Source of the DNA: Candidatus Martarchaeota archaeon
GTDB lineage: Archaea; Micrarchaeota; Micrarchaeia; Micrarchaeales; Micrarchaeaceae
Direction of reading: 5' to 3'
Assembly (NCBI GenBank): GCA_023485505.1
Contig: JAMCZN010000005.1
Coordinates: forward strand, 1 to 36,666
Length of the DNA stretch: 36,666 bases
Below the pieces are notes generated by a model that ran no database searches, was not told the origin of the DNA, and saw only the letters and a list, made by a program, of their open reading frames with translations. Made by a program: the position numbers and the translations under genes. Below are positions 13,403-32,969 of the stretch, piece after piece (the first letter of the stretch is position 1; the number at the start of each line of letters is the position of its first letter).

Positions 13403-14410
13403 TTGAAAATAAATGCAAACCCATTGGAAGTAAGGTCCGACTTGAGGATAATGATAATGTTCCTTATAGTGCAGTTCTTCGGCCTCCTTCTTGCCACCAG
13501 CGTGTACTCAATAAACGTGCCTATCTCCGCATACACGCAGGCGGTGCAGCCGGTATCGTCCGTGCAGGTTATCGTATTCTATATAATAGGCATAATCCTT
13601 TTCGCTGCGCTTATACTGTTCATCCTTAGGAAATACCACAGCGGAAGGTTCATGATACTGATGGAGACCATAGCGATATTCGGAGGGTCATTCATAACCT
13701 TCCTTTTCATAGTCGGTTCGCTTACCGGCTCCGTGGAGCAGATAATATTCCAGAATACCCTTTCGCTTCAGATGTCCATAGACTATCTCCTTGCCGCGAT
13801 ATTTGCCGTTACATTGATAGTGCTCAAAAACAAGAGGCAGAACCTAAGGAATGTGGCTTCGATAATAGCGAGCATAGGCATAGGCCTGTACATCGGGGTT
13901 TATCTTACATTCACCACTGTGCTTATTTTTATGGCGATACTTGCGGTATACGATTACATAGCCGTATTCATAACAAAGCACATGGTGGCCATGGGCAATG
14001 CCGCAATACAGATGAACCTTGCGCTCATTGTCGGCGCGAGCGATGCGGGGGCGTTTCCGCACAGCTATTTTACAAAAGCGCAGATAAAGAGCTTCGAGAA
14101 GCACAAGCCGCTGCTTGAGCGTTACAAAAGCGTATTCAACAAGATAGACAGGAAGCGCCTTATTCCTGTGATTGCACCTAGAGCTCTTGGAAACGGGGAC
14201 ATGGCTGTTCCGTTAATGGTGGCTGTCGGCGCTTACAAGGCATACCTGAACTTCACGGGAAGCCTTGTGGTGGTGGCAGGTGCGACGTTTGGCCTGGCAC
14301 TGACTTTCATGATACTTAGCAAATACAAGAGGGCGCTCCCGGCGATACCTCCGTTGTTCCTGGGCATACTGCTTGCGCTAGGGGTATATACTATCATAAT
14401 GGCGCTGTGA
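13403..14410 (+). CDS. Presenilin/signal-peptide-peptidase-like intramembrane aspartyl protease (family A22)
   Basis: A 335-residue polytopic membrane protein with about nine hydrophobic segments. The catalytic motifs of GxGD intramembrane proteases are present: YD at residues 183-184 (in AVYDYIAV) and LGNGD at 262-266, giving aspartates 184 and 266. LPAIP at 312-316 occupies the place of the PAL motif. Such enzymes cut transmembrane segments, including leftover signal peptides and membrane stubs. The first codon is TTG at 13403; the ATG at 13451, preceded by GAGG, is a shorter alternative that would still keep the first membrane segment. A membrane-anchored Lon-like protease is encoded nearby at 15159. 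Confidence 0.88.
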   Translation: MKINANPLEVRSDLRIMIMFLIVQFFGLLLATSVYSINVPISAYTQAVQPVSSVQVIVFYIIGIILFAALILFILRKYHSGRFMILMETIAIFGGSFITFLFIVGSLTGSVEQIIFQNTLSLQMSIDYLLAAIFAVTLIVLKNKRQNLRNVASIIASIGIGLYIGVYLTFTTVLIFMAILAVYDYIAVFITKHMVAMGNAAIQMNLALIVGASDAGAFPHSYFTKAQIKSFEKHKPLLERYKSVFNKIDRKRLIPVIAPRALGNGDMAVPLMVAVGAYKAYLNFTGSLVVVAGATFGLALTFMILSKYKRALPAIPPLFLGILLALGVYTIIMAL

Positions 14411-19126: not shown

Positions 19127-19265
19127 CGTAAACGTTATCTTATCGTTACGATGGATATCTGCTGTTTAAGATATTAAAAGCTTTCTATGATGGCCGAATT
19201 TCTGGATTTCCGAGAAACCTTATTAATGTTGAATGTGCAATGGTACTGTAAATTTTGCGATTTTT
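19127..19265. promoter_or_regulatory. Divergent promoters of uL29-aIF1 and rad50
   Basis: A 139-base gap. The minus strand has CTTTTAATAT at 19171-19180 (uL29). The plus strand has TATTAAT at 19221-19227, predicting transcription near 19249 and a leader of about 17 bases before the rad50 ATG at 19266. Nothing else recognised. Confidence 0.45.
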
Positions 19266-21569
19266 ATGATTGATTCAATAGAGGTAACCAACTGGAAGAC
19301 CCACAAGAGCACAAAGCTTGAGTTCCAAAAGGGGGTAAATGTGCTTGTCGGTGTAATGGGTTCCGGAAAAAGCTCGATACTTGACGCAATATCATTCGCG
19401 CTTTTTGGCACCTTCCCCATACTCAACAGCAAGAGGACAAGCCTAAGCAACCTTATAACGAGCAGGCCCACCATCGAGAAGGAATCGGAAGTCAGTCTAT
19501 CGTTCACCGTTGACGGTGAAACATACGGGGTGACGAGAAGGATAAGCCAGCAAGGTTCAACGGCAAAGGTCACCAAGAACGGCGCATATCTGCAGGCCCA
19601 ACCCACAAAGGTCACGGAAGAGATAGCGAACGTGCTGAAGATAGACTACGATACATTTTCAAGGGTCATCTATGCGGAGCAGAACGAATTGGATTATTTC
19701 CTCAACCTGAACAAGGGCGAAAGGAAGCGCGTTGTCGACCATATGCTTGGCCTTGATACTTTTGCCACCGCAGAAGAGAACGCAACATCTCTGATAAACA
19801 GGCTAAAGGACACAATAGGCTCCGAGGAGGAGATGCTTGCCAGGATAGACATAAAGGAACTTAGGGAACAGACGACATCGCTAAAGTCCCAACTCCATAG
19901 TTTGGAAAGCGAACAGAAGAAGATGAAAGAGGCATACCTGCAATCAAGGAGTGCGTTCGACGAATCAAAGCAGAAACTGGAAAGTGCAAGGAAAGAGATC
20001 GAGAAAAGGAATGCCATAACGAAAAAGATAACGGAACTGGATGGAATGATAAACACATGGGAAAAGGAGGTAAAGAAGATAGAGGCCGAGCACATAGATG
20101 AAAAGGGCCTTGATGAGGCAAAGGACAGGCTCGACAAGGAATACGCCGAACTAGAGAAAAGAATAAACGATTCAAGGAAGGAAGAAACCAGGCTTTCAAA
20201 GGAGCTTTCCGCAAAAGAAACCGAGAAAAAGATGCACAAGCGGGACATCGACGAAAGGGAAAAGCTGAAAAAGGAGCTTGGCTCGGATAGTGAAGACAAG
20301 ATAAGGGACAAAATAAAGGAGGCAATCGCACTGCAAAAAGCAGAAAACGACCATCTTGCAGCGTCAAAAACCAGGATAGAGGAGCTGGAAAAGGTATCAA
20401 GGGACCTTGAGGGCCACGTCGGAAAGTGCCCGGTCTGCGAGCGGGAATTGGATGAAACTCACAGGAAGGGGCTATTGGAAGAGAGAAAATCAGCCATATC
20501 GAAACTGAAAGATGAAATCAAGGTCCACTCAAGAAAATCAGAGGAGCTCGCCAGTGAACTGGAGGCATTTAATAAATCATACATGAATGTGCATTCAAAA
20601 AACGAGACGATAAGGAAGTATAGCGGTCTTGACTCTATAGTGGAGCAGTTAGAAAAGGAATGCAAGCGCCTGGTTCCCGAGATCGAAAATGCCAGATCTG
20701 CAATAAAGGATATGGAAGGAAAGCAGAAGGTCACCGCGGATAAACTTAATTTGGCAAACCAGCACATCAAGACCGTTGAGAGAAAGAGAGGATACGAATC
20801 AGAGATATCAAAGGCAAAGAAACTAGTAGAAGATAAGCACGGCGAGCTATCCGGCATAAAAATAAACGAAAACTCCATGGGCCAATTGGAGGAGGAATTC
20901 GGAAGGCACAGCAAGCTTGTGGGTGAACTGGATTCTAGGATAAAAGAGAGCGAAAAGTATTTTTCATCGCTAAAGTCCCAACACGACGATAAACAGAAGC
21001 AGATAGACAGTTATGAGGCCACGTCCAAAAGGATAGAAAAGAAACAGGGCATAGTGTCAAACCTCAATAAATTCAAGACCGTGTTGCAGGAAACGGAAAC
21101 CACATTAAGGAAAAAGCTCAGCTTGTCCATAAACAACCTTATGGAGGAGCTGTGGATGCAGCTCTATCCATATTCGGATTATCAATCTATAAGGTTGACA
21201 CCAAAAGCGGACGACTACCTTCTTGAGATAAGGACCCAGGACGGCGACGATAACGAATCGTGGATGCAAGTGGATGGCACAGCGAGCGGCGGAGAACGCA
21301 GCATAGCGTGCCTCACCCTGAGGGTGGCCCTGGCTATGGTCGTCGTTCCAAACCTAAGATGGCTCATACTTGACGAGCCGACGCATAACATAGACGCGAA
21401 CGGGATATCCCAGCTCGTAGAGGTGCTTGGCGGCCCATTGCCGAACTTTGTCGAGCAGATATTCATAATCACCCATGAAGAGAGCATGAAACAGATCCAG
21501 AACGCAAAGACATTCATACTCGAAAGGGACAAATCTATAAACTCGTCGACAAACGTAAGTGCGCTGTAA
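19266..21569 (+). CDS. rad50: DNA double-strand break repair ATPase Rad50
   Basis: A 767-residue SMC-like ATPase, partner of Mre11 in end processing. Walker A GVMGSGKSS and the Q-loop YAEQNEL are in the N-terminal lobe. Two long coiled coils flank a zinc hook CPVC at residues 388-391. The C-terminal lobe has the signature ASGGERS, Walker B WLILDEPTHNID and a histidine switch IITHEE. The protein is somewhat shorter than typical archaeal Rad50 (about 850-900), meaning shorter coils. ATG 19266 is chosen over the in-frame ATG at 19233, whose extra 11 residues precede the conserved first strand. No mre11, herA or nurA gene is in the window. Confidence 0.95.
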   Translation: MIDSIEVTNWKTHKSTKLEFQKGVNVLVGVMGSGKSSILDAISFALFGTFPILNSKRTSLSNLITSRPTIEKESEVSLSFTVDGETYGVTRRISQQGSTAKVTKNGAYLQAQPTKVTEEIANVLKIDYDTFSRVIYAEQNELDYFLNLNKGERKRVVDHMLGLDTFATAEENATSLINRLKDTIGSEEEMLARIDIKELREQTTSLKSQLHSLESEQKKMKEAYLQSRSAFDESKQKLESARKEIEKRNAITKKITELDGMINTWEKEVKKIEAEHIDEKGLDEAKDRLDKEYAELEKRINDSRKEETRLSKELSAKETEKKMHKRDIDEREKLKKELGSDSEDKIRDKIKEAIALQKAENDHLAASKTRIEELEKVSRDLEGHVGKCPVCERELDETHRKGLLEERKSAISKLKDEIKVHSRKSEELASELEAFNKSYMNVHSKNETIRKYSGLDSIVEQLEKECKRLVPEIENARSAIKDMEGKQKVTADKLNLANQHIKTVERKRGYESEISKAKKLVEDKHGELSGIKINENSMGQLEEEFGRHSKLVGELDSRIKESEKYFSSLKSQHDDKQKQIDSYEATSKRIEKKQGIVSNLNKFKTVLQETETTLRKKLSLSINNLMEELWMQLYPYSDYQSIRLTPKADDYLLEIRTQDGDDNESWMQVDGTASGGERSIACLTLRVALAMVVVPNLRWLILDEPTHNIDANGISQLVEVLGGPLPNFVEQIFIITHEESMKQIQNAKTFILERDKSINSSTNVSAL

Positions 21570-21656: not shown

Positions 21657-23792
21657 ATGTCGACAAGGGGCTCACGCCCAAATTCAGCAGTAGCTATGCC
21701 TAGAACTTCTAGTTTTACCGGCAGCCTCCTTTTTGCGCTTTCAACGATTTCCGCAGTGTTGATGGTGCTGGCGTTTTCAATATCATTTTCCAATGCAACC
21801 TCATCAAATACCATTATGGCAAACGTCTACATAAATTGCCAATTTGGGACTTCGGTAACGGTAAACGCACCGGTATACCTGCAGCCGGCCGTTATCGGGG
21901 TAACGTACAGTGCAAATTCGATAAACCAATGCACGATACCAAGCATAACTGGCAACGTAGAGATATCCAATACTATAAGCGGTTATATCGCGTATACGAC
22001 TGCGGCATCCATATCAAACGTCGGGTCAAGCCCGGCAAGCGGATATTTGACCATTAATTCAAATGCGGTTCCGCAATCAACATACTACATCGCAACCCTT
22101 GCGCTCGCATCACCAAACATAACAGAATCGAGCACATCAAACATGTTTCAAGTGATATCCCCTGCAAACATATTGATAACATCTTTGACGGTATCCCCAT
22201 CATCTCCCTCGCAGGGCTCACAGATAACCATAACTACGAACATACTCAACAGTGGAAGCCTTGTATCGAGCAATGCATTCTTGAACCTTAAGATAACAGG
22301 ACCGAATGGCTTTTCTTATGTTTCAAACACGGCTGTTGCAAATCTGGCACCGCAGCAAAGCACAATAATATCCACGACACTCACTTCGGTGACACAGACG
22401 ACACAAAAATACACCGTTGTCGAAAACGTATCATACGTTAGCACGTACACGTATAATTCGGTAACCTACCAGACCCCCCTGCTATATTCAAACGCCGCTT
22501 CTACGACATATACCGTCCCTTCGACAGTGACGCAGTGCGGAAGTTGCGGTGTTGTTTACATACCTCCAGTGCCTGTAAGTATAACGATACCGTCTTCACT
22601 GCTTCAGTTCACCCAGATACCAATATTCTCTGAAGCGATTCTCGGAAGCACTACGATAGGGATAATGGGACTGGAAAACATGTATAATGACAATATAACC
22701 GTGAGCCTTTCAGTGCCAAAATATGCGTTCGGAACGCTGGAGCTGTCCAGCTCTACGGTTTACCTTACTCCAAAGACCACGCAGCTCGTCGATACCGTTT
22801 TTGAGCAAAACAGGAATACGACACCGGGCACTTACGTCGTACCGATAAACGTGACTACGAGAAGCATAAGCAATGGCAAACTGAATACTCAATCGAGTGT
22901 CGTATTTGCCGCATACAATGTCAAAACACAGCCAAACTATCCATACTATATAGAAAATGTGAACCTGTTCAACAACACCCAGACCGCAAAGATTGAGTTT
23001 TCCGTGTACAACCCGACCCCAAAGCCGCTTTATAACGTAAACCTTTCGTTCGAAGTCCCGCGTTTGTCCATGACCGAACTTACGAGCATAAAGGCATCAG
23101 GCCCGGTATACCACATATCAAACACTAGCGGAGAGACCATAGTAACATGGGTAATACCAAAACTGATCCAAAATAGCAGCGCTCTGCTAGAAACCTCTAT
23201 ATCGAATATAACATCCCCCTCGAGTTTCTACAATCTGCAGGCAAGCCTGGCATCGGCTTCCACGATAAACGCGACAAGCTTCAGCATATCTAGCATCAAC
23301 GCGCCGATATTCCTTGAAAACCAGTCTGGCGCTATTTCGGTAACTGCGTTGTATACGGGGACAAATGAAACCAACGTAACCATGACGCTGGTTCCGCCAC
23401 CAGGACTTGGAATAACCGTACAGAACAAGACCCAGAGGTTCCACGTGTTCCCGAACACGCTCGTCACTGCAACTTATAACGTAAGCGGCATAGGCACGCT
23501 TGGCACAAGCACGTTCCAACTGAGGGTGTTCGGCCCGTTCAGTGAACAGACATATTCAATACCTGTGTTAGTGGTCCCGCCTCCGGAACAGAGTCCGATA
23601 TCCCTGCCAAACCTTCCAAAGACGCCGCCAGAGCTTGTATTTTTGTTAGAAGTGATAGCTGCAATAATCATAATAATTGTGATGATAATAGAGGCCATAA
23701 AACATCTCAGGAACAGACCGAAATATGTAAAGTCGAGAGCAGAAGAGTTAAAAAGGGTGCGTCAGAGAGTTAACAGGACCATAGAGGACTAA
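21657..23792 (+). CDS. Large surface protein anchored at both ends, Ig/CARDB-like repeats, function unknown
   Basis: A 711-residue exported protein. Residues about 22-45 form an N-terminal signal/anchor helix and about 658-681 a C-terminal membrane helix, followed by a 30-residue basic cytoplasmic tail predicted to be helical. The extracellular part is Ser/Thr/Asn-rich beta-strand sequence with many N-x-S/T sequons. A segment near residues 170-290 looks like a CARDB/Ig-type domain (SPSSPSQGSQITITTNILNSG), and a QCGSCG motif precedes a proline-rich hinge at about 295-305. No enzyme motif is seen. It stands just upstream of the MinD-like ATPase, so the cytoplasmic tail could be a docking site; that is inference. 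Confidence 0.8.
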   Translation: MSTRGSRPNSAVAMPRTSSFTGSLLFALSTISAVLMVLAFSISFSNATSSNTIMANVYINCQFGTSVTVNAPVYLQPAVIGVTYSANSINQCTIPSITGNVEISNTISGYIAYTTAASISNVGSSPASGYLTINSNAVPQSTYYIATLALASPNITESSTSNMFQVISPANILITSLTVSPSSPSQGSQITITTNILNSGSLVSSNAFLNLKITGPNGFSYVSNTAVANLAPQQSTIISTTLTSVTQTTQKYTVVENVSYVSTYTYNSVTYQTPLLYSNAASTTYTVPSTVTQCGSCGVVYIPPVPVSITIPSSLLQFTQIPIFSEAILGSTTIGIMGLENMYNDNITVSLSVPKYAFGTLELSSSTVYLTPKTTQLVDTVFEQNRNTTPGTYVVPINVTTRSISNGKLNTQSSVVFAAYNVKTQPNYPYYIENVNLFNNTQTAKIEFSVYNPTPKPLYNVNLSFEVPRLSMTELTSIKASGPVYHISNTSGETIVTWVIPKLIQNSSALLETSISNITSPSSFYNLQASLASASTINATSFSISSINAPIFLENQSGAISVTALYTGTNETNVTMTLVPPPGLGITVQNKTQRFHVFPNTLVTATYNVSGIGTLGTSTFQLRVFGPFSEQTYSIPVLVVPPPEQSPISLPNLPKTPPELVFLLEVIAAIIIIIVMIIEAIKHLRNRPKYVKSRAEELKRVRQRVNRTIED

Positions 23793-23850: not shown

Positions 23851-23890
23851 GCATGTAAATGCGTATAAATGCGCGTAAATGCATTTAAAG
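23851..23890 (+). repeat. Four tandem 10-bp repeats overlapping the ATPase promoter
   Basis: Four consecutive decamers read gcatgtaaat, gcgtataaat, gcgcgtaaat, gcatttaaag. Looser copies of the core (GCGTAAAA at 23796, GCATAAAT near 23832) lie upstream. The 10-base period places each copy on the same face of the helix, as for cooperative operator binding. The last copy contains the TATA-like TTTAAAG at 23884-23890. Confidence 0.7.
23884..23890 (+). promoter_or_regulatory. TATA box of the MinD/ParA-like gene
   Basis: TTTAAAG is centred 25 bases before ATG 23912, giving a predicted leaderless message. It is embedded in the fourth decamer repeat, so a repeat-binding protein would compete directly with the basal factors. 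Confidence 0.5.
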
Positions 23891-23911
23891 ACCAGTTGGA
23901 AAGTTGGTATA

Positions 23912-24706
23912 ATGGTAGAAAGGACGTACCGTATAAGGGTATCCTCTCAAAAGGGCGGAGTCGGCAAGACAACTATTGCGGTCAACCTTGCGGTCTCTTT
24001 GAGCAACATGGGTTACAAGTGCCTTTTGATTGATGGGGATCCGATAAATCCATCGATAGAGTACCATCTCGGCCTTCCCGATGTTAACATAGGTTACAAA
24101 GACCTGCTTTTCGGAGATGTGTCTTCCATTCAAAAGGTCATAGTCAGGCATTCGGATACGGGGCTGCATGTCATTCCAGGTGTGCAGTACATGAAGCCAT
24201 ACACCCCAACAGACGCACAACTGATAAAATTTTCGCAGAAGCTGCATGAGCTAAATGGTTATGACTATATCATAGTGGACACCCCTCCGGGATTCTATTC
24301 GCCGGTGCTTGCGAAAGCGTATGATGAAGCGATTATAGTGACGACTCCAGACATGCCGTCAACGACCAGTGCGATAGTGCTAGACCATGTATACAAAAAG
24401 ACAAATCTTCCAAGGACAAGCCTTGTGGTGAACAAGGTGGCCGGAAAGAGATATGAGTTGAGCATAGGGGAGATAGAAGAGGCCTTTGGACAGAAAGTCA
24501 CAGGGGTGCTTCCAGAGGACGATGTGGTTCCGAAAAGCATATCTGAACACGTGCCTGCCGTACTGGCTAATAAGAAAAGCTCCTTTTCGACGAAAATGGC
24601 AAGAATGGCAAAAATGTACGCGAGCTATGTGACGCCTAAGGGCGAGATCTACAAGAGGGAAGGTTTCTGGACAAGATTCCTTGACATTTTCAGGAGACGC
24701 AGATAA
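23912..24706 (+). CDS. MinD/ParA-family deviant Walker A ATPase with putative membrane-targeting C-terminus
   Basis: A 264-residue P-loop ATPase of the SIMIBI class. The deviant Walker A KGGVGKTT is at residues 14-21 with the signature lysine K14; LLIDGDP is at 38-44 and VDTPPG at 122-127. The C-terminus WTRFLDIFRRRR alternates hydrophobic and basic residues and resembles the amphipathic membrane-targeting helix of MinD. Proteins of this family position division sites, chromosomes, or surface organelles such as archaella, pili and chemoreceptor arrays. It lies inside a run of surface-protein genes and no ParB, replication or MinC gene is adjacent, which points to positioning of a surface structure; that is inference. 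Confidence 0.88.
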   Translation: MVERTYRIRVSSQKGGVGKTTIAVNLAVSLSNMGYKCLLIDGDPINPSIEYHLGLPDVNIGYKDLLFGDVSSIQKVIVRHSDTGLHVIPGVQYMKPYTPTDAQLIKFSQKLHELNGYDYIIVDTPPGFYSPVLAKAYDEAIIVTTPDMPSTTSAIVLDHVYKKTNLPRTSLVVNKVAGKRYELSIGEIEEAFGQKVTGVLPEDDVVPKSISEHVPAVLANKKSSFSTKMARMAKMYASYVTPKGEIYKREGFWTRFLDIFRRRR

Positions 24707-24736: not shown

Positions 24737-24765
24737 TTTTATATATGCAGATGCTTGTGCGTCTG
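24737..24765 (+). promoter_or_regulatory. TATA box and inverted repeat before the 165-residue surface protein
   Basis: TTTTTATATAT at about 24736-24746 is a TATA element. An inverted repeat CAGATGC-TTGT-GCGTCTG at 24748-24765 (one mismatch, G-T type) lies between it and the expected transcription start near 24766, where a repressor would block the promoter. Confidence 0.4.
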
Positions 24766-24781
24766 TATCGCGGGTGCATGG

Positions 24782-25279
24782 TTGGCTAGAAAGAGGGCAA
24801 CAACTTCCAATTACACGTTCGTCGTTTCGATGCTGATAATAGCAATACTGTTGCTCGCCATAGTCCTGATTTCGATTCCTATGGTGGAGAATTCTGGAAA
24901 TAATTTCAATGGATGTGCGATAAGCATACCGAACAGGTCAATGAGCTTTGGGGTGCTGAATCCTATGGAAACCACGCCTACGAATGTTTCGGTAGTGGAT
25001 TCGAATCCTGGAACAGATCCTGCTACTATAATGATGGCCGGAAGCAACTGGACGGACACCGACAACGACTCATTTTATGTTACTAATACCGAATGGAGCG
25101 CTTCGCCAATGCGCACGTATGGCGGAAATGCGCTTCAGCCTTATTCATCAGGATTGCAGAATACCAGCGTAAACATAGGAAACGATGCGTCAAAAACTCT
25201 TTATTTCGGCCTTAACATACCGCCAGCGCAGCCAAGTGGCGCATACTCGCAGACTATACTGATAATCAACAGCTGCTAA
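24782..25279 (+). CDS. Anchored surface protein consisting of one copy of the cluster-specific two-Cys domain
   Basis: A 165-residue protein if translation starts at TTG 24782; a TTG at 24755 would add nine residues. 24782 is chosen because GGGTG sits just upstream and the TATA box predicts transcription from about 24766. A basic start is followed by a membrane helix at about 11-33, then a single domain bounded by C45 and C165. The domain carries MSFGVLNP, AGSNW, FYVTNTEW, NALQ, LYFGLNIPPAQP and GAYSQTILI, which recur in the C-terminus of the next protein and twice in the 319-residue protein. The two terminal cysteines probably form a disulfide. Family unknown to me; it could be a filament subunit. 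Confidence 0.75.
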   Translation: MARKRATTSNYTFVVSMLIIAILLLAIVLISIPMVENSGNNFNGCAISIPNRSMSFGVLNPMETTPTNVSVVDSNPGTDPATIMMAGSNWTDTDNDSFYVTNTEWSASPMRTYGGNALQPYSSGLQNTSVNIGNDASKTLYFGLNIPPAQPSGAYSQTILIINSC

Positions 25280-25365
25280 TCCTAAATCTTCAAATCTTCC
25301 ATAAAAGGAATAAAGATTAATACATTGCTTTGGTTAATATATTGCTTACAAGGGGGTGTAATTTG

Positions 25366-28300
25366 GTGGATATCGATTCGTCCAGCGCGTTGAGGGGTTC
25401 TTTCAGCGGAAAGGCGATTTTCTCTTACTTCATTGTCTTTGCCGTAATGGCAAATGCCGTGCTTGTGTATACGCAAAGCACAAACTCTACCGCGCAATCA
25501 AACATCGTTCAAAACTGCACACTTACCATATTTACTGAAAGTGGGTTGCCAATGGACACAATGTGGAGCATAACATATGCCAATAGCGTTTCATCTTCCG
25601 CATCAAACAGCGTGATATTTTCTCCAATGCAAAGTGGCATATATATTTTCAACACGTCAAATATCATAGTAAACGGCATAAAATATACTCCAAACCCGTC
25701 AAATGGCTCGTTGCAATGTGGTTCATCGTTTAACATAGATTTCACCACTCCTGTTAATCAGGCACAAACGACCAACCATAGCACGGTGCAAGCAAGCCAA
25801 AGCGCACAATCCAATCCCAACACACAAACCATAGCCCTGAGTTACTCTAGAGGCAGAAATTTTGGCAACAATATAGTGGCCACATCAAACTCACTTTCCT
25901 TTATGCTGCAAAAGTCCCTGATAAGCAATATACTTGTGAACCTGAACACAAACAGCCTTAAATTCAATATATCCATAACAAACCAATCGACGCCAATCCC
26001 ACAAGCCAGCAATTCATATCTCGTAAATCCAAGATCCTACCAGTTCATAAGCATAGACAGCAGCGTAAATGGCGGCGGAAACATAGACAACTACGTAACG
26101 AACGTAACATATGACTTTTCCGTTCCATCAACGTGGGAAAGCGGTACAAATCCATATTCAATGACCCTTATGAAACAGGAAAACGGAGGATGGCAGCCAA
26201 TGCCAACCACGTACATCGGAAGCTCCGGTGGCTACTATGAATATTCAGCAATATCTAATTCCTTCTCATACTACACTGTGGGGCTTACCTCATCAAACGC
26301 GATAGCCACAAACCAGATAATCCTTACTTTGCCTACTGGATTTTCAACATATTTCTGGTCCGCCGCCATGCAGATCAGTTTCGGATCTGTAAATTGGACT
26401 ACGGATGCCGATGCATCTATAACATTCAGCCCAAACAATCCTCCCGGCTCTGATGTTGGTCATAATGCCATATACTCTACCGGAGACCTTATCGGGGCTG
26501 CCGGCTCTAGCGGTACGTCAGCCGCTGACAACGGACTTGTGCTTTCCGGAATGGGTGCGAACGTGCTAATCGGCAATGGCAACATGTTCACAAATGAGTC
26601 AAATCAGTTGGCAAGCGGCGCCCATGACGAGTTTTTCAATGTGCTTACCGCAAACAGCTTTGTGATACTGCTATTGGCTTCCGGTTCGGGGGATGCATCA
26701 AAGATATCATCCATAGCTTGGCCTACTGGTTGCAATGTGCAGCAAAACACAACCGATGCTACCTATTTCGATATTGCAGCTATAGCCACATGCGCCGATT
26801 ATCAGACCACTGGGCAAACCCTATTTACCTATACTGAAAGCTCATCTAAGGCAGGGGTATCTTACGCGGCATACGTGTTCCCGCCATATGGGGTGACGCT
26901 GGATGACAGCCCTTCCACTGGACAGATAACGACAAATGGAGGTACATGGGCAAGCGGAACAGTGGTGAACGTTATTGGTGAAGGGACCATAACTGCAGTG
27001 CCTCCTTCCGGTTATGCACTTAACTACTGGAGTGTCGACAATCCAAACAATGCGATAATAACGTCAAATACTGCAACTACTACAACCATAATAGTAATGG
27101 GCAATGTAGTGCTGACGGCAAATTATATACAGGCGAACATACCGACAAACTTCATAGAGACTGGCCTACCAAGCGGTACAACATGGAGCGTCACGTACAA
27201 GGGAAGTCCTGAAAGCGCCAGCACCTCAAACATATTGTTCATGACGGATTCTGGAAATTTTGCTTACTCTATTCCGAGCGTGCAAGTTGGCAGCAATACT
27301 TATGTGGCAAACACACCGTCAGGATACTGGGTTTCCGGAAATACGTTTGATGTGGAGTTCGGCATAGAGCCGCGCATGAACGTGCAGTTCAATCCAGTAT
27401 TCCTTGGCGTAAGCGACAACATAACCGCAAACGCGGTGCCGAGCAGCGACGGTATAGAGATACTTGCAAATGGGGTAGTTAAGCAGACTGGCAGCGGTGG
27501 AAATGTGCTTTTCAATGCAAACAGTCTAAGCACCGCAGCAGACTATCTTATCACTGCAAAAGACACGACCACTGGGGCTGCAAACAGCATAGTGTTGCAT
27601 GTAGAGCCCGACCCTACGAGCATAGACAATGTCATAGCAATAACATTTTCAATGCCTAATGTCACCGTATCATCAAGCGAGACCCTGAGCTCGGATCTTA
27701 TTGGCTACGATATTACTATAAATTCTGGAGTTACGCTCACGGCTAATGGCTATAGTATAATTGCTGCAGGCAACTTCATTAATGATGGAAATATAATAAC
27801 CGGCAATGTCCCAAACGGTGGACTTGGAGGAGTTGGTACTGCAGCGGGCGCTAATGGGGCATCTTTCCTCAGTTCATATGCGGGTTCTGGCGGTGGCGGC
27901 GGAGGGAATGATGGTGGTAAAGGACTAAGTGGTGGCAGCGGCGGAAACACTATAGCTTCAGCGGGTTCTGGTGGTGCATTCGATGCCGCAGGCGGCGCGG
28001 GTGCCACCCCTCCTTCTCCTCCCCTTAGCGATTCTACTATAGCGAATTGGTATAGCTCTGGCATCCAAAACCATCTGGAAAGCGCCAGTGGCGGTGGCGG
28101 TGCTGGTTACGGTACAGGCAATAACGGAGGAAATGGGGGAGGCAGCGCACTTGGCATGTTTATAGAAGCAGGCAACATAACCGTAGGGAATGTATATGCG
28201 GCTGGCGTGCCTGGAAATGCCGCTGTCGGGACAAAGAGCGCAGGAGGAGGTGGCAGCGGCGGCGGGTCTATACTTTTAGTGTATGGCACCAACTGTAATG

Positions 28301-29763
28301 GTTGTTCCGGAACTGGTTTGGTTGTGACAGCAGGTGCCGGCGGTGCAGGAGGCACCTCCACTAACGGTGGCGGAAATGGCGGCGCTGGCCGAATAATAAC
28401 ATATCAATACACCAATATTCCGGTCCCAGTAATACCCTCTCCTTTCCAGGTGCTTGTGCCAACAAACAGCGCGAAGTACAGTGGAATTGAAGCCAGCAAC
28501 CTTGATAATATAGAGTTCTTCCTTGCCAATACCATCATGCTATCATCCTGGCTGGAAACCAACAACATTAATACTGCAGCAAACTCGCTTTATTGGGTAA
28601 AATTGCCAGATGGGTTTAACAACAACCAGAGCATGACAATATATATGGGGTTCGCAAACCCATCAACAAACCTCATGAACCAGTACACTGGTGAATCTCC
28701 ATATCTGTCTACAAATTATGGCCAATACGATAGTGGTACGAACACTTTTGTCGCTTACGCCAACGGCACAATGAATACTATATTTACGCTGGATTCCAAC
28801 ATGCTTTCCATAAATACTATATCTGGAGTCACGCTTCCGACTGGCGCCACTGGAAATGTATTGGAACCTGTCACAGATAGCACTAACTCGATAGCGTGGG
28901 CCGGAATAGATATAGGTCTCTCAAGATACATAATCAACGGCTACATTATGCAGAACGCCGCCAATTACCAAGAAGCAGGTCTTGGCGGTGAGATGGGGTC
29001 GACACCACGGGGATACATATTTGGTGCGGGGGAGAGCGCAGGCCCTACGCCATATATCGTTTCGTTGGCAGAAGAAAGTAGCACAGCATCCACCGTTCTT
29101 GCCGGGGTAGGGACCGGCGGAGTGATAAACTCGTGGATGTATTTGCAAGGCATATACGATGATGGTACGATGACGGCAATAGAGGGAAGAAATGTTCTTC
29201 AGGCTGGCAACACTGTCACGGCTACTGATACCACATTTACAGGAAACTATGCTGGGATAGCTGCTGCAAATACGCTCTCATCAAGCACGCCCGAGGTAGT
29301 GGGATACATGTACGTACATACTTATCCATTGATTGGAGCCCAACCTCTACCTGTATTCAACGGCAACATAATGAACATACCTGTCAGCGCTACGTGTGGC
29401 ATATCTCTTAGCCCTGGCTCTTTCACGTTTGGCACGATGGGTCCCGGTGCTACGATATCTACGTCAAATGTGGTCACGGACACCAACTATGGTGGTGGGG
29501 TGCCTGCGACAGTATATTTATCAGGATCAAACTGGATATCTTCTGGCACGTCCAACTTCTATGTAACCAACACCGAATGGAATGGGGCGAAGCTTGGCAC
29601 ATATAATGGCAATGCATTGCAGCTCTTTCCGTCCGGGGCTACTTCCACAACTATATCTATAGGTGGAGGATTAAGCGCAAACGTATATTTCGGTCTTGCG
29701 ATACCGACCGCACAGCCACCTGCCACATACACACAAAACATAGTATTCGAGAACCAGTGTTGA
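25366..29763 (+). CDS. Giant multidomain cell-surface protein (1465 residues), adhesin-like
   Basis: An exported protein with one N-terminal hydrophobic segment (about 15-38) and no C-terminal membrane helix. Start GTG 25366 follows GGGGGTG by 7 bases; TTG 25330 is less likely. Apparent modules: ETGLP-type domain at about 54-130 (FTESGLPMDTMWSITY) and again from about 596 (FIETGLPSGTTWSVTY); PGF-pre-PGF-like domain at about 170-308; a module shared with the long pilin at about 318-506; InlB-repeat-like at about 510-591; an Ig-like part at about 669-752; a Gly-rich region at about 817-1009; DUF2341-like sequence at about 1024-1132 (SLYWVKLPDGF, MTIYMGFANPS); and a C-terminal two-Cys domain at 1344-1465. 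Many sequons suggest heavy N-glycosylation. Probably adhesion or surface-layer structure. Confidence 0.78.
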   Translation: MDIDSSSALRGSFSGKAIFSYFIVFAVMANAVLVYTQSTNSTAQSNIVQNCTLTIFTESGLPMDTMWSITYANSVSSSASNSVIFSPMQSGIYIFNTSNIIVNGIKYTPNPSNGSLQCGSSFNIDFTTPVNQAQTTNHSTVQASQSAQSNPNTQTIALSYSRGRNFGNNIVATSNSLSFMLQKSLISNILVNLNTNSLKFNISITNQSTPIPQASNSYLVNPRSYQFISIDSSVNGGGNIDNYVTNVTYDFSVPSTWESGTNPYSMTLMKQENGGWQPMPTTYIGSSGGYYEYSAISNSFSYYTVGLTSSNAIATNQIILTLPTGFSTYFWSAAMQISFGSVNWTTDADASITFSPNNPPGSDVGHNAIYSTGDLIGAAGSSGTSAADNGLVLSGMGANVLIGNGNMFTNESNQLASGAHDEFFNVLTANSFVILLLASGSGDASKISSIAWPTGCNVQQNTTDATYFDIAAIATCADYQTTGQTLFTYTESSSKAGVSYAAYVFPPYGVTLDDSPSTGQITTNGGTWASGTVVNVIGEGTITAVPPSGYALNYWSVDNPNNAIITSNTATTTTIIVMGNVVLTANYIQANIPTNFIETGLPSGTTWSVTYKGSPESASTSNILFMTDSGNFAYSIPSVQVGSNTYVANTPSGYWVSGNTFDVEFGIEPRMNVQFNPVFLGVSDNITANAVPSSDGIEILANGVVKQTGSGGNVLFNANSLSTAADYLITAKDTTTGAANSIVLHVEPDPTSIDNVIAITFSMPNVTVSSSETLSSDLIGYDITINSGVTLTANGYSIIAAGNFINDGNIITGNVPNGGLGGVGTAAGANGASFLSSYAGSGGGGGGNDGGKGLSGGSGGNTIASAGSGGAFDAAGGAGATPPSPPLSDSTIANWYSSGIQNHLESASGGGGAGYGTGNNGGNGGGSALGMFIEAGNITVGNVYAAGVPGNAAVGTKSAGGGGSGGGSILLVYGTNCNGCSGTGLVVTAGAGGAGGTSTNGGGNGGAGRIITYQYTNIPVPVIPSPFQVLVPTNSAKYSGIEASNLDNIEFFLANTIMLSSWLETNNINTAANSLYWVKLPDGFNNNQSMTIYMGFANPSTNLMNQYTGESPYLSTNYGQYDSGTNTFVAYANGTMNTIFTLDSNMLSINTISGVTLPTGATGNVLEPVTDSTNSIAWAGIDIGLSRYIINGYIMQNAANYQEAGLGGEMGSTPRGYIFGAGESAGPTPYIVSLAEESSTASTVLAGVGTGGVINSWMYLQGIYDDGTMTAIEGRNVLQAGNTVTATDTTFTGNYAGIAAANTLSSSTPEVVGYMYVHTYPLIGAQPLPVFNGNIMNIPVSATCGISLSPGSFTFGTMGPGATISTSNVVTDTNYGGGVPATVYLSGSNWISSGTSNFYVTNTEWNGAKLGTYNGNALQLFPSGATSTTISIGGGLSANVYFGLAIPTAQPPATYTQNIVFENQC

Positions 29764-29884
29764 TTATATATGGATAATATGATCAATAATGGTATCAAAA
29801 ATAGTACATCAGGCAGTTCCGCAAAATGCAAAGTGTTTTTAATGCTTACTGTAAATGTATTATGGGCGAACTTAAGGTGGAAAT
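29764..29884 (+). promoter_or_regulatory. Promoter and leader of the 319-residue surface protein
   Basis: A 121-base gap. TTTTTAAT at 29835-29842 is TATA-like with a predicted start near 29862. A strong AAGGTGG at 29874-29880 lies 4 bases before ATG 29885, so this message, unlike several neighbours, appears to use a Shine-Dalgarno leader. Confidence 0.45.
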
Positions 29885-30844
29885 ATGTTCAACAATAGAA
29901 AGTCGCAACATATCGCCGTAATAACTGGCGTTTTGCTGGCGGTCGTACTTGTTGCATCTGTCTTGATAGTTAGACAATCTTCCGCTACTTCAAGCGGAAA
30001 CGTAGTAGCGAATGTGGTTGTCGGTTCTGTTTGTTATATGGGGGTTAGCAATACTGCCATTACCTTCGAGAACCTCAACCCAAACTCGATAGGAGCCCTG
30101 GCTGCTCCTACAGCTAACCTGATAGTGGTTTCCGATAATGGAGGAAATGCCGCATACAACATAATAGTCAGCGGCGGAAACATGGTGTTCGATTCCAATT
30201 CCTTCTTTGTAGATAACACCCTTTGGAACCCAATATCTGCCGGCGCTGGCGTAGGAAACGGACTTACACTAACTGCTGTCACTACAAACATAATCATAGC
30301 CGCTCCAACAGAGAGCACTCCAACTACATCAAACAACATTTACTTTGGACTAGAGGTCCCTGCGGGTACTCCACAAGGCATATATACAAACACCATAACC
30401 CTGGGAAACACGTGTAACTCGGATACAAATGCAATAACTGAGACCGAAAACGTCCAGCCATACTGCTACATAAGCGTGCCAAGCACCATAACTTTCGGCA
30501 CGATGAACCCGGCAAGCGCACACAATACAAATGTGCTTGTCTTAGATACCGACCCAGGCGGCAACGTAAATGCCAACGCATATGTGGGCGCCGCGAACTG
30601 GATTAGCACTGGTTCAGCAAACTTCCTGGCTTCAAATACTGACTGGAATGCTGCAACGCAGTCAAGCTTCCTCGGTACGAATGTACTGTTGTATCCAAGC
30701 GTCGCAGACACTGCAATAACGGTGATAGCTCCAACGCAAGCCACCCCGGCCACAACAAATAACATATACTTTGGCCTATATGTGCCACAGGGCACCACAG
30801 CAGGTACATATACGCAGAATATTGTTATTGAAAACTCATGTTGA
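29885..30844 (+). CDS. Anchored surface protein with two tandem copies of the two-Cys domain
   Basis: A 319-residue exported protein. One hydrophobic segment spans about residues 10-30, followed by two copies of the cluster-specific domain: C50-C177 and C194-C319. Each copy runs from a Cys through a [FT]FxxxNP turn, a D[TN]xGG-type segment, NW or an equivalent, NT[LD]WN, and ends with NIYFGL, a VP turn, a G-x-YT block and N-[TS]-C. Copy 2 is closer to the C-terminus of the 1465-residue protein (FGTMNPAS against FGTMGPGA; YTQNIVIENSC against YTQNIVFENQC). The 16-residue linker is acidic. The stop overlaps the next start (TGATG). A structural fibre or stalk subunit is plausible. Confidence 0.78.
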   Translation: MFNNRKSQHIAVITGVLLAVVLVASVLIVRQSSATSSGNVVANVVVGSVCYMGVSNTAITFENLNPNSIGALAAPTANLIVVSDNGGNAAYNIIVSGGNMVFDSNSFFVDNTLWNPISAGAGVGNGLTLTAVTTNIIIAAPTESTPTTSNNIYFGLEVPAGTPQGIYTNTITLGNTCNSDTNAITETENVQPYCYISVPSTITFGTMNPASAHNTNVLVLDTDPGGNVNANAYVGAANWISTGSANFLASNTDWNAATQSSFLGTNVLLYPSVADTAITVIAPTQATPATTNNIYFGLYVPQGTTAGTYTQNIVIENSC

Positions 30845-31593
30845 TGGTTGATACGATGGATTTCGCGAGGGTATCTTCGGTATTGTTAATTTCGTTTGTG
30901 CTCATGTTCCTATTTGTGCACACTTCAAGCGCGCAGCTTGGTGAAGAGGCGGGCACGCTTGCATTTCAGGTGCCTATAGGCAGCAGCCAAACGATCCAAT
31001 GGCATCTCGCAAACGAGGGAAACTCATCATTGAACATATATATCTATGTCCCGTCATTGCAGAACGTATCAAATGAGGTAACGCCGACGATTATTGCATC
31101 TCCGATGAATTTCACGATTCCTCCATATTCAAGGTTCATAGTAAACATAACCGCAACAATGCCTGCAAACGACCAGCCAAATGTTGGCGGATGGTCCGGC
31201 ATGTTGCAAGCGGTTGAGACGTCCAATGCGTCAGCACCTGGCGGAGCAGTGATACTCGCAGGTGTCGGAAAGAAGTTTACTATATTCTCAGCACCTCCAA
31301 CCACCACTACTACATCTATACCTCCCGCATCTACCACAAGCAACACTCAGCAGCCAACAGTACCTACCGTTTCAGGAAACCTTGCAGCGATAGGGATAGT
31401 GGTGATAGTGGTCGTCGTTATCGCGATACTCGGTTTGCTCTATGTGATGGAGAAGAATAAGAGGGCAAAGGCAAAGAAAAAGAGGACAGCTGCAAGAGGC
31501 AAGCGCAGGCGTGCAACTCCGCAAAGGTCTAGTGCAAGAAATAGAAGGGCCCGCTCAAGACGCACAAGCGCTCGCCAAAGGAGGCGACGCTGA
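30844..31593 (+). CDS. Membrane protein with small extracellular beta domain and very basic cytoplasmic tail
   Basis: A 249-residue protein, start taken at ATG 30844 overlapping the upstream TGA; in-frame ATGs at 30838 and 30856 are also possible. The signal peptide covers about residues 10-31. An extracellular part (about 32-150) resembles a CARDB/NEW3-like beta-sandwich (QTIQWHLANEGNSSLNIYIYVPS). A Thr/Pro/Ser stalk lies at about 151-177 and a membrane helix at about 181-201. Residues 204-249 are a tail with 25 Lys/Arg among 46 residues and no acidic residue, facing the cytoplasm by the positive-inside rule. Such a tail could contact nucleic acid, acidic lipids or an acidic protein. Translational coupling ties it to the 319-residue protein. 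Confidence 0.78.
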   Translation: MVDTMDFARVSSVLLISFVLMFLFVHTSSAQLGEEAGTLAFQVPIGSSQTIQWHLANEGNSSLNIYIYVPSLQNVSNEVTPTIIASPMNFTIPPYSRFIVNITATMPANDQPNVGGWSGMLQAVETSNASAPGGAVILAGVGKKFTIFSAPPTTTTTSIPPASTTSNTQQPTVPTVSGNLAAIGIVVIVVVVIAILGLLYVMEKNKRAKAKKKRTAARGKRRRATPQRSSARNRRARSRRTSARQRRRR

Positions 31594-31657: not shown

Positions 31658-32707
31658 TTAAACTTCTCCAAGGCCGTATTCCTCCTCTCTCTTTCCGTCG
31701 GCTCCCCATTCGACGTGAGATCCGAGTATGGATGCGCTTTTTATCCCGGTGAATATCGCGATTACTGACACCTTGCTGTTGTAAGCCGGATCTATCCTTG
31801 CGCCCCAGATTACGTTTGCGTTCTTTGCCGTCATTTCGGATATCCTTCTTCCTATCTCATTGGCTTCTCCCAATGTCAGATCGTTGCCGCCTATTATGTT
31901 CATGAGCACTGAAGTGGCGCCTTCGTATTCAACATCAAGAAGCTTGTTCTTGAACGTGTCCTTTACCACCATGTTCACCTTGTCCGGGCCTTCTCCCTCT
32001 CCTATGCTTATGAATGCAAGGTCTCCTCCGGACATTATGCTTTTTACGTCCGCAAAATCAAGGTTTATCAGCGACGGAGTATTTATTGTCTCGGCGATGC
32101 CCCTTACTGCCCTCGATGTGACCTCATCAGCCACTCTAAAGGCCTGTTCCATTGTAAGATTTGGATATAGCTCATAGAGCCTTTGGTTATCGACTATTAT
32201 CAGGGTATCAACGCGCTTCCTAAGCTCTTCAATCCCCTCCTGCGCGATTTTTATCCTTACTCTCTCCAGCGCAAATGGCGTTGTGACTATGCCTATGACT
32301 ATGGCTCCCTGGCTCTTGGCTATCTCCGCCACTATCGGAGCAGCCCCTGTTCCTGTCCCTCCGCCCATGCCTGCTGTGACAAACACGAGATTGCAGTCCC
32401 TTATCGCATCCTCTATATCAGATCTGGAATACTGCGCTGCCTTCGCTCCTATATCCGGAAAACCGCCGGCGCCAAGGCCCCTTGTCAGGACTCCTCCTAT
32501 AAGCACCTTCCTTATCGTGGGGTCAAGCAGCTTCAAATGGTTAGAATCGGTGTTTATCGCCACAAGGGATGCTCCCTTTATGCCCATCCTCGATAGCCTT
32601 TGTATCGTGTTGCTTCCTCCCCCTCCGCAGCCGCAAACCGCTATCTTCGCCTGAAAAATATCGTTATCTACGCTAGAAGCGCTAAGCGCGCTATCTATAA
32701 GATCCAT
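31658..32707 (-). CDS. ftsZ: Cell division protein FtsZ, second paralogue
   Basis: A 349-residue FtsZ with the first glycine loop CGCGGGGSN at 25-33, the tubulin signature GGGTGTG at 115-121 and the T7 loop NLDFADV intact, so it should bind and hydrolyse GTP. ATG 32707 is used; the open frame reaches 32794 but the added residues are not family-like. A minus-strand TATA at 32734-32744 fits leaderless transcription from 32707. The short C-terminus (EEEYGLGEV) differs from that of the first FtsZ at 6051-7139. Two FtsZ proteins with different roles, one for ring assembly and one for constriction, are known from Haloferax. The gene converges on the surface-protein cluster. Confidence 0.95.
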   Translation of the reverse strand: MDLIDSALSASSVDNDIFQAKIAVCGCGGGGSNTIQRLSRMGIKGASLVAINTDSNHLKLLDPTIRKVLIGGVLTRGLGAGGFPDIGAKAAQYSRSDIEDAIRDCNLVFVTAGMGGGTGTGAAPIVAEIAKSQGAIVIGIVTTPFALERVRIKIAQEGIEELRKRVDTLIIVDNQRLYELYPNLTMEQAFRVADEVTSRAVRGIAETINTPSLINLDFADVKSIMSGGDLAFISIGEGEGPDKVNMVVKDTFKNKLLDVEYEGATSVLMNIIGGNDLTLGEANEIGRRISEMTAKNANVIWGARIDPAYNSKVSVIAIFTGIKSASILGSHVEWGADGKREEEYGLGEV

Positions 32708-32733
32708 GTTCTCAGCTATAATGGAAAAGTAGG

Positions 32734-32771
32734 TTATAAATATATGGCGTGAAACCCATGCGTTTACGCAT
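32734..32771 (-). promoter_or_regulatory. Promoter of second ftsZ with upstream palindrome
   Basis: TATA-like TATATTTATAA on the minus strand at 32734-32744 lies 27-37 bases before ATG 32707. Behind it a perfect palindrome ATGCGT-TT-ACGCAT at 32758-32771 could bind a dimeric regulator. The spacing upstream of TATA is suited to activation or BRE competition. Confidence 0.5.
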
Positions 32772-32969
32772 CTGGGCGAAACTGCACAAGACATTATACA
32801 TAGATGGGTATCTAGCTATGCCCTCCATAGAATCAATCACAAACAGCCGATAAAACCATGGAAAGAGCTTGGTTTATATATATTTCGTTTATAATAAGTA
32901 TTGCAAAGCCCTAATGGAACTAAGATAGGCTTATTTTATTCCTGGGCAACAGATAGACATTGTGATTTT
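32772..32969. promoter_or_regulatory. Intergenic region upstream of uL16
   Basis: Together with the ftsZ promoter this makes a 262-base divergent gap. Candidate plus-strand TATA elements are TTTATATATA at 32873-32882, TTTATAATA at 32888-32896 and TTATTTTATT near 32932-32941; the last would give a leader of only about 10 bases before ATG 32970. Which is used cannot be decided. No RNA gene recognised. Confidence 0.4.

Follow-up and report, generated by a model that had tools for sequence, protein, structure and literature searches.

Chaperone-usher pili (type 1, CFA/I and the archaic Csu/CupE types) are built from immunoglobulin-like (Ig-like) subunits that carry an N-terminal donor strand just before the first cysteine (Cys), end in an adhesin whose C-terminal subunit domain has no donor strand, and have a gene for a PapD-fold partner adjoining a subunit gene. 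TasA/TapA and the archaeal bundling pili (AbpA) are likewise donor-strand filaments outside the type IV pilus family, and the Sulfolobus threads (Saci_0406) consist of secreted subunits joined by donor-strand complementation (PMC9715654). The WxL/WxLIP systems of Gram-positive bacteria combine small and large proteins that share a C-terminal domain with an Ig-fold transmembrane partner predicted to insert a strand (PMC10599100). Here we describe a gene cluster in a 36,666-nucleotide stretch of DNA (the window) from Candidatus Martarchaeota archaeon, contig JAMCZN010000005.1, that, judged from sequence and predicted folds, appears to share the chaperone-usher features named above, the adhesive role of its giant protein being proposed. 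We suggest that it encodes an usher-less donor-strand fiber comprising a tip adhesin, a shaft pilin, a membrane anchor, a PapD-fold helper and a MinD-like ATPase, a reading to which we assign a probability of roughly 0.62. From sequence features, distribution, co-occurrence and predicted folds we infer its strand partners, its polymerization and the tip, base, chaperone and host-attachment roles of its products.

The cluster centers on a two-Cys domain that a preliminary description, made from the letters of the window, had placed in four copies in three consecutive genes. Reading out the open reading frames (ORFs) gave the same four copies at the same coordinates, listed below with positions referring to the whole stretch and residue numbers to the ORF named:

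24755..25279, plus strand: P0001, a hydrophobic N-terminal segment and one pilin-like domain, with no donor strand.
24911-25276, plus strand: copy 1 of the domain, residues 45-165 of the P0001 ORF when read from 24782.
25330..29763, plus strand: giant secreted protein of 1465-1477 amino acids with the domain at its C-terminus and no donor strand before it; proposed tip adhesin.
29392..29760, plus strand: copy 2, the C-terminal two-Cys pilin-like domain of the giant ORF.
29885..30844, plus strand: P0003, with signal peptide, donor strand, domain 1, linker donor strand and domain 2; proposed shaft pilin.
29999..30022, plus strand: putative free N-terminal donor strand of P0003, NVVANVVV, residues 39-46, unpaired in the AlphaFold2 model.
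30032..30415, plus strand: copy 3, domain 1 of P0003, C50-C177.
30425..30454, plus strand: linker strand of P0003, TNAITETENV, residues 181-190, predicted to complete domain 1.
30464..30841, plus strand: copy 4, domain 2 of P0003, C194-C319, its groove predicted to be open.

All four copies contain the motifs first quoted for them ([ST]FxxLxP or [ST]FxxMxP, YFGLx[VI]P and Y[ST][QN][TN]I), with the NTxW motif appearing as NTEW, NTEW, NTLW and NTDW. Their alignment has 20 invariant columns, with 31-45% identity to the first copy, and hidden Markov models built from three copies found the held-out fourth at 82.8-122.9 bits, compared with 13.5 bits for the best of 2000 shuffles of the held-out copy. 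A search of the whole source genome (about 751 kb, 73% complete) found only these four.

The main feature is a short segment just before the domain. The unit of about 125 residues bounded by two Cys stood as first described, but that description omitted some 12 residues before the first Cys that are conserved in the shaft proteins and linkers, and so did not list a strand there. In the small proteins, the segment from signal peptide to first Cys reads N-V-x-A-x-V-x-V-x-x-x-C, with hydrophobic residues at -10, -6 and -4 and a small residue at -8 on one face of the strand and polar residues on the other. In leave-one-out scoring, with the threshold set at the 99th percentile of 12-mers drawn at random from these proteins, the strand was present in 46 of 54 small proteins, in 16 of 19 linkers of tandem proteins and in 2 of 47 giant-protein domains. 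One of these two exceptions (L045) is a linker between two domains, and the other (L094, 472-1857) is an ORF of 461 amino acids in which a MinD-type ATPase runs in frame into a small pilin; neither is a true giant, and the strand is therefore present in none of the 45 true giants.

The same strand recurs in a protein without the pilin-like domain, P5, which is encoded upstream:

21657..23792, plus strand: P5, with signal peptide, donor-like strand, Cys-containing domain, CARDB-like Ig domains, C-terminal transmembrane helix and basic tail.
21807..21833, plus strand: donor-like strand of P5, NTIMANVYI, residues 51-59, right after the signal peptide and before C61; the same nine-residue motif as in the pilins.

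A 9-mer strand model trained on pilins only placed this strand first among all 9-mers of the protein, about 690 residues long, in 14 of 23 P5 homologues (shuffle mean, 0.045), and third of 702 in the P5 of the window. A single threshold was passed by 28 of 41 small proteins and 6 of 14 P5 proteins, and by none of 23 giants or 402 other ORFs. The P5 alignment conserves C61, C92 and the transmembrane segment, while the match to CARDB (PF07705) is weak and falls below the cut-off (E 5e-4). P5 is present in 102 of 301 genomes of the phylum. Most P5 homologues that lack the following Cys domain retain the strand when their genome encodes the pilin-like domain (L132, L133 and L136), and the scores of P5 relatives are significantly but modestly lower where the genome has no detected domain (p 0.004). 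Several genomes without a detected domain nevertheless keep the P5 motif, some in genera with domain-bearing relatives and others incomplete drafts, so that the tracking of the motif with the domain across genomes is supportive only.

Variants of P5 occur elsewhere in the phylum. A single 237-residue ORF (L153:2446-3159), from a genome in which no domain was detected, combines the N-terminal strand and Cys module of P5 with a portion of the Ig domain of P4 (described below); strand and Cys domain form a separate short gene near P4 at L154:2446-2955; and they stand alone in an ORF ending at a contig edge, possibly a truncated P5, at L152:3246-3611. Ca. Micrarchaeum A_DKE has a third P5 (L163:747-2753; genome positions 253,561-255,531) apart from its two clusters.

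Structure prediction is consistent with these strands acting as donors. An AlphaFold2 model of mature P0003, run with 48 locus sequences, reached a mean predicted local distance difference test score (pLDDT) of 95.2 and a predicted template-modeling score (pTM) of 0.81. The linker forms a strand in the DSSP assignment at model residues 147-156, five residues past the last strand of domain 1. In domain 1 the first core strand (24-30) is formed and the last strand (131-141) is continuous, and in domain 2 the first core strand is absent and the last strand broken, the pattern expected if the linker completes domain 1 and the groove of domain 2 stays open. In Foldseek searches of the PDB, the three best matches of P0003 were donor-strand-complemented fusions of CfaB, in CfaB-CfaB and trimer form (E 2.9e-6 to 9.6e-6); FimH, LpfD, FimI and also the WxLIP structure 9i25 stood lower among the matches listed. 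The preliminary description had taken the shared domain for a unit from which a polymer or complex could be built and had the impression of a donor-strand or TasA-type fiber subunit; the first idea gains support from the donor-strand-like motif, the tandem model, the distribution of the motif over tip, shaft and base and the matches to fimbrial pilins, and the donor-strand impression is likewise supported. The TasA half of that impression did not hold: no camelysin/TasA family match occurred in the 21 genomes searched, and no TasA, AbpA or thread structure was among the best 50 Foldseek matches.

Across the phylum, the domain occurs in 94 of 301 genomes, 80 of them from the same order, with named relatives in Ca. 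Micrarchaeota metagenome-assembled genomes, Ca. Micrarchaeum sp. A_DKE and two records labeled Marsarchaeota. It had been called new, and in comparisons with Pfam, NCBIfam and PDB sequences, including hmmscan of 70 members, no well-described family appeared above the cut-offs; weak tail matches to PF22680 (GH123 N-terminal Ig) and PF14352 were all that was returned, and a known family for the domain was rejected on these results. None of the 70 members matched a pilin family such as PF00419 or PF05229. A viral origin was also rejected, as IMG/VR and phage records held no relative of the domain and a viral fold search returned mostly generic Ig-like proteins.

The domain closes its protein, with the last Cys as the final residue, in 111 of 112 ORFs (those cut by a contig end excluded), and recurs in three types of protein: giants of 800-2200 amino acids that end in the domain, small one-domain proteins of about 175 and tandem proteins of about 325. 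Both the first and last Cys are present in 113 domains, neither in 7 and only the last in 1. The double losses all fall in first domains of tandem proteins (L041, L042, L046, L051, L086, L105 and L116), which we take to be related, so that the counts of loss are not independent. Because the pair is lost jointly, the pattern across sequences points to a disulfide between first and last Cys within one domain. A polymer linked from the last Cys of one subunit to the first of the next was considered and is less likely, given this joint loss (seven double, one single) and the expected position of both Cys at the same end of the domain.

Two further partners complete the cluster, and both lie outside the interval 24782-30844 given in the preliminary description, which holds the domain genes but leaves out the conserved partners at 21657-23792, 23879-24706 and 30838-31593:

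23879..24706, plus strand: P6, a MinD/ParA-type ATPase with a basic aromatic C-terminal tail GFWTRFLDIFRRRR.
30838..31593, plus strand: P4, with signal peptide, one PapD-fold Ig domain (30934-31311), transmembrane helix and very basic tail; proposed membrane-tethered chaperone or cap.

P4, which overlaps P0003 by 7 bases, was chosen by synteny alone. In 46 of 49 distinct members of its family the gene follows a co-directional domain ORF within 200 bp, and in 44 of these that ORF is a small one; among the 301 genomes, 74 have both P4 and the domain, 4 have P4 only and 20 the domain only. The AlphaFold2 model of its ectodomain (pLDDT 90) has a PapD-type fold, with FaeE, the PapD-like domain of CEP192, major sperm protein (MSP), CsuC, PapD and FimC as best Foldseek matches. 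A motif just before and in the last strand, GGAVIxxGVAKI, is conserved, its Lys invariant and its Gly nearly so, and the region is modeled poorly (pLDDT 66 for residues 101-110). Fimbrial chaperones hold their own donor strand at the matching place. Complete P4 proteins end in a transmembrane segment and a basic tail; this Arg/Lys-rich cytoplasmic tail of about 40 residues is found family-wide. A P4 relative with two Ig-like domains (L058:6563-7468) lies beside a one-domain P4.

P6 matches NCBIfam minD_arch at E 6e-36, below the curated cut-off. Of the 17 loci with enough upstream sequence, 12 have P5 and P6 ahead of the domain genes, and neither occurs there without the other. The complete genome of Ca. 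Micrarchaeum harzensis A_DKE (NZ_CP060530.1) contains the cluster twice:

849,635-858,620: A_DKE cluster 1, in the order P5-P6-giant-P4.
863,267-872,888: A_DKE cluster 2, in the order P5-P6-giant-small-P4, with the small pilin at 871,620-872,153.

We propose that the domain is an incomplete, pilin-like Ig fold with an acceptor groove, stapled by the disulfide between its first and last residues and completed by the donor strand of a neighbor. Small proteins, having a donor strand and one or two domains, would polymerize head to tail into a shaft; in the two-domain form, domain 1 would be completed in cis by the linker strand, with the N-terminal strand free to act as donor and the groove of domain 2 as acceptor. 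The giant protein, having a groove and no donor strand, could occupy only a terminal position, where it would act as a tip adhesin that binds the host surface, and P5, having a donor strand, no pilin-like domain and a C-terminal transmembrane helix, could stand only at the membrane end, as the base. This distribution of groove only, donor and groove, and donor only would thus permit a single order, with the giant at the far end, small proteins between and P5 at the membrane. P4 probably shields or occupies the groove before a further subunit is added, P6 probably positions or powers the site of assembly at the membrane, and the fiber probably serves attachment to a host archaeon.

The main rival is a display complex like that of WxL/WxLIP, without a polymer, in which the C-terminal domain anchors and the transmembrane protein P4 holds the small and giant proteins at the cell surface by strand insertion, as proposed for WxLIP. 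The gene logic is the same (PMC10599100): small and large domain proteins and an Ig-fold transmembrane partner share one cluster, complete P4 proteins end as such a partner might, and a WxLIP structure is among the listed matches of P0003. This reading nonetheless leaves unexplained why the strand is confined to small proteins, linkers and P5 and why tandem linkers are built of that same strand, a donor-strand logic additional to the WxL scheme. The copies, at about 125 residues compared with 160-190 for the WxL domain, also have no WxL tripeptide and no match to the WxL family. To our knowledge, Micrarchaeota have no peptidoglycan to which such proteins could bind. We consider this alternative unlikely, though it deserves more weight than the others.

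It is less probable still that the strand before the first Cys is simply the domain's own first strand, in S-layer or adhesin proteins that end in an ordinary beta-sandwich and exchange no strand. Ig-like sandwiches are common in archaeal surface proteins, and the Foldseek E-values of P0003 are of a size that generic Ig-like proteins also reach; against this, all 45 domains of true giants do without the strand, the model leaves it unpaired and P5 has it without the domain. A divergent form of a known archaeal donor-strand filament, whether the threads (Saci_0406) or TasA-like bundling pili (AbpA), would share the principle of a secreted subunit whose Ig-like or jelly-roll head follows a donor strand at the N-terminus (PMC9715654), but is very improbable given that neither a PDB sequence match, a TasA-family match nor any place among the best 50 Foldseek matches was found, and that for threads the accessible text of that paper mentions neither a giant protein at the tip nor a PapD-fold partner or a MinD ATPase.

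Several observations weigh against the donor-strand fiber itself. The linker strand of the window is polar (TETE) and scores under the threshold, and its strand partner in the model is deduced from DSSP and topology. P0001, whose donor-strand score of -12.2 is at background level, fits nowhere in the scheme of tip, shaft and base. The P0003 matches have TM-scores of at most 0.45 and modest E-values (about 1e-6), a level that generic Ig-like proteins in the viral library also attain, so that similarity in fold does not by itself decide the matter. The PapD fold of P4 also occurs in non-chaperones (MSP and CEP192) and by itself does not prove a chaperone role, and 20 domain-bearing genomes have no detected P4. 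No usher was found, as set out below, and no filament is known to consist of the proteins of this cluster.

As proposed, the system works in principle like chaperone-usher pili, yet it does not belong among them. Family searches covered 21 genomes, 14 of them at least 90% complete: the usher (PF00577) and the PapD_N domain of the two-domain periplasmic chaperone (PF00345) were each found in none, with positive E. coli controls, while a genome search for the SCPU family (PF05229) gave no match in a run whose control also gave none and is uninformative. The cluster belongs to an archaeal phylum, and P4 usually has one Ig domain and a transmembrane helix in place of a two-domain periplasmic architecture. 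We know of no chaperone-usher counterpart of the membrane-anchored base P5 or of the MinD-like ATPase. The predicted disulfide joins first and last residues, whereas that of CupE1 is C41-C85 (PMC10104325).

Like the threads, the cluster is archaeal and appears from sequence and models to encode secreted subunits joined on the donor-strand principle; threads are described, in the accessible text of their report, as one subunit with a putative cap (Saci_0405) and without a giant adhesin or PapD-fold partner, and their YYY N-terminus and conserved isopeptide Asp are both absent from the mature N-termini here (SxxNVxAxVxV). TasA as a sequence family was excluded, with Peptidase_M73/TasA (PF12389) in none of the 21 genomes and a positive B. 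subtilis control. A search of the open-access literature found no paper on this system.

If the fiber is real, it adds to the donor-strand filaments an archaeal, usher-less and apparently chaperone-paired branch with a sequence rule for tip, shaft and base (groove only, donor and groove, donor only). The cluster also addresses the open question of how DPANN symbionts hold onto their hosts. Cryo-electron tomography of Ca. Micrarchaeum harzensis revealed filamentous structures at host contact sites, with no proteins named in the accessible portion of the report, where Krause et al. suggest that the interaction is made by small filaments and favor the host as their origin (PMC8975820). The cluster products could be symbiont-side candidates for these Micrarchaeum-host filaments. 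The full proposal, that an usher-less donor-strand pilus of a symbiotic archaeal phylum, with tip, shaft, donor-only base, tethered PapD-fold chaperone and MinD-type positioning ATPase, builds those filaments, is tentative, and we judge the odds to be somewhat against it; were it true, donor-strand exchange assisted by a chaperone would occur beyond the bacterial outer membrane. As both clusters are present in the genome of the cultured A_DKE, the question can be tested in living co-culture.

The remaining observations concern the giant protein and the genes around the cluster. The giant protein matches PF18998 (InlB B-repeat-like), PF10102 (DUF2341) and TIGR04213. A Rad50/SMC-like ATPase with a zinc-hook match is encoded at 19233-21569 and often lies upstream of the cluster in the same genus. 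An FtsZ-like gene, named from its sequence, follows the cluster directly on the minus strand (31658-32794) and adjoins it in several relatives too. Farther upstream, positions 13403-14410 encode a protease of the presenilin/signal-peptide-peptidase family (PF06550).

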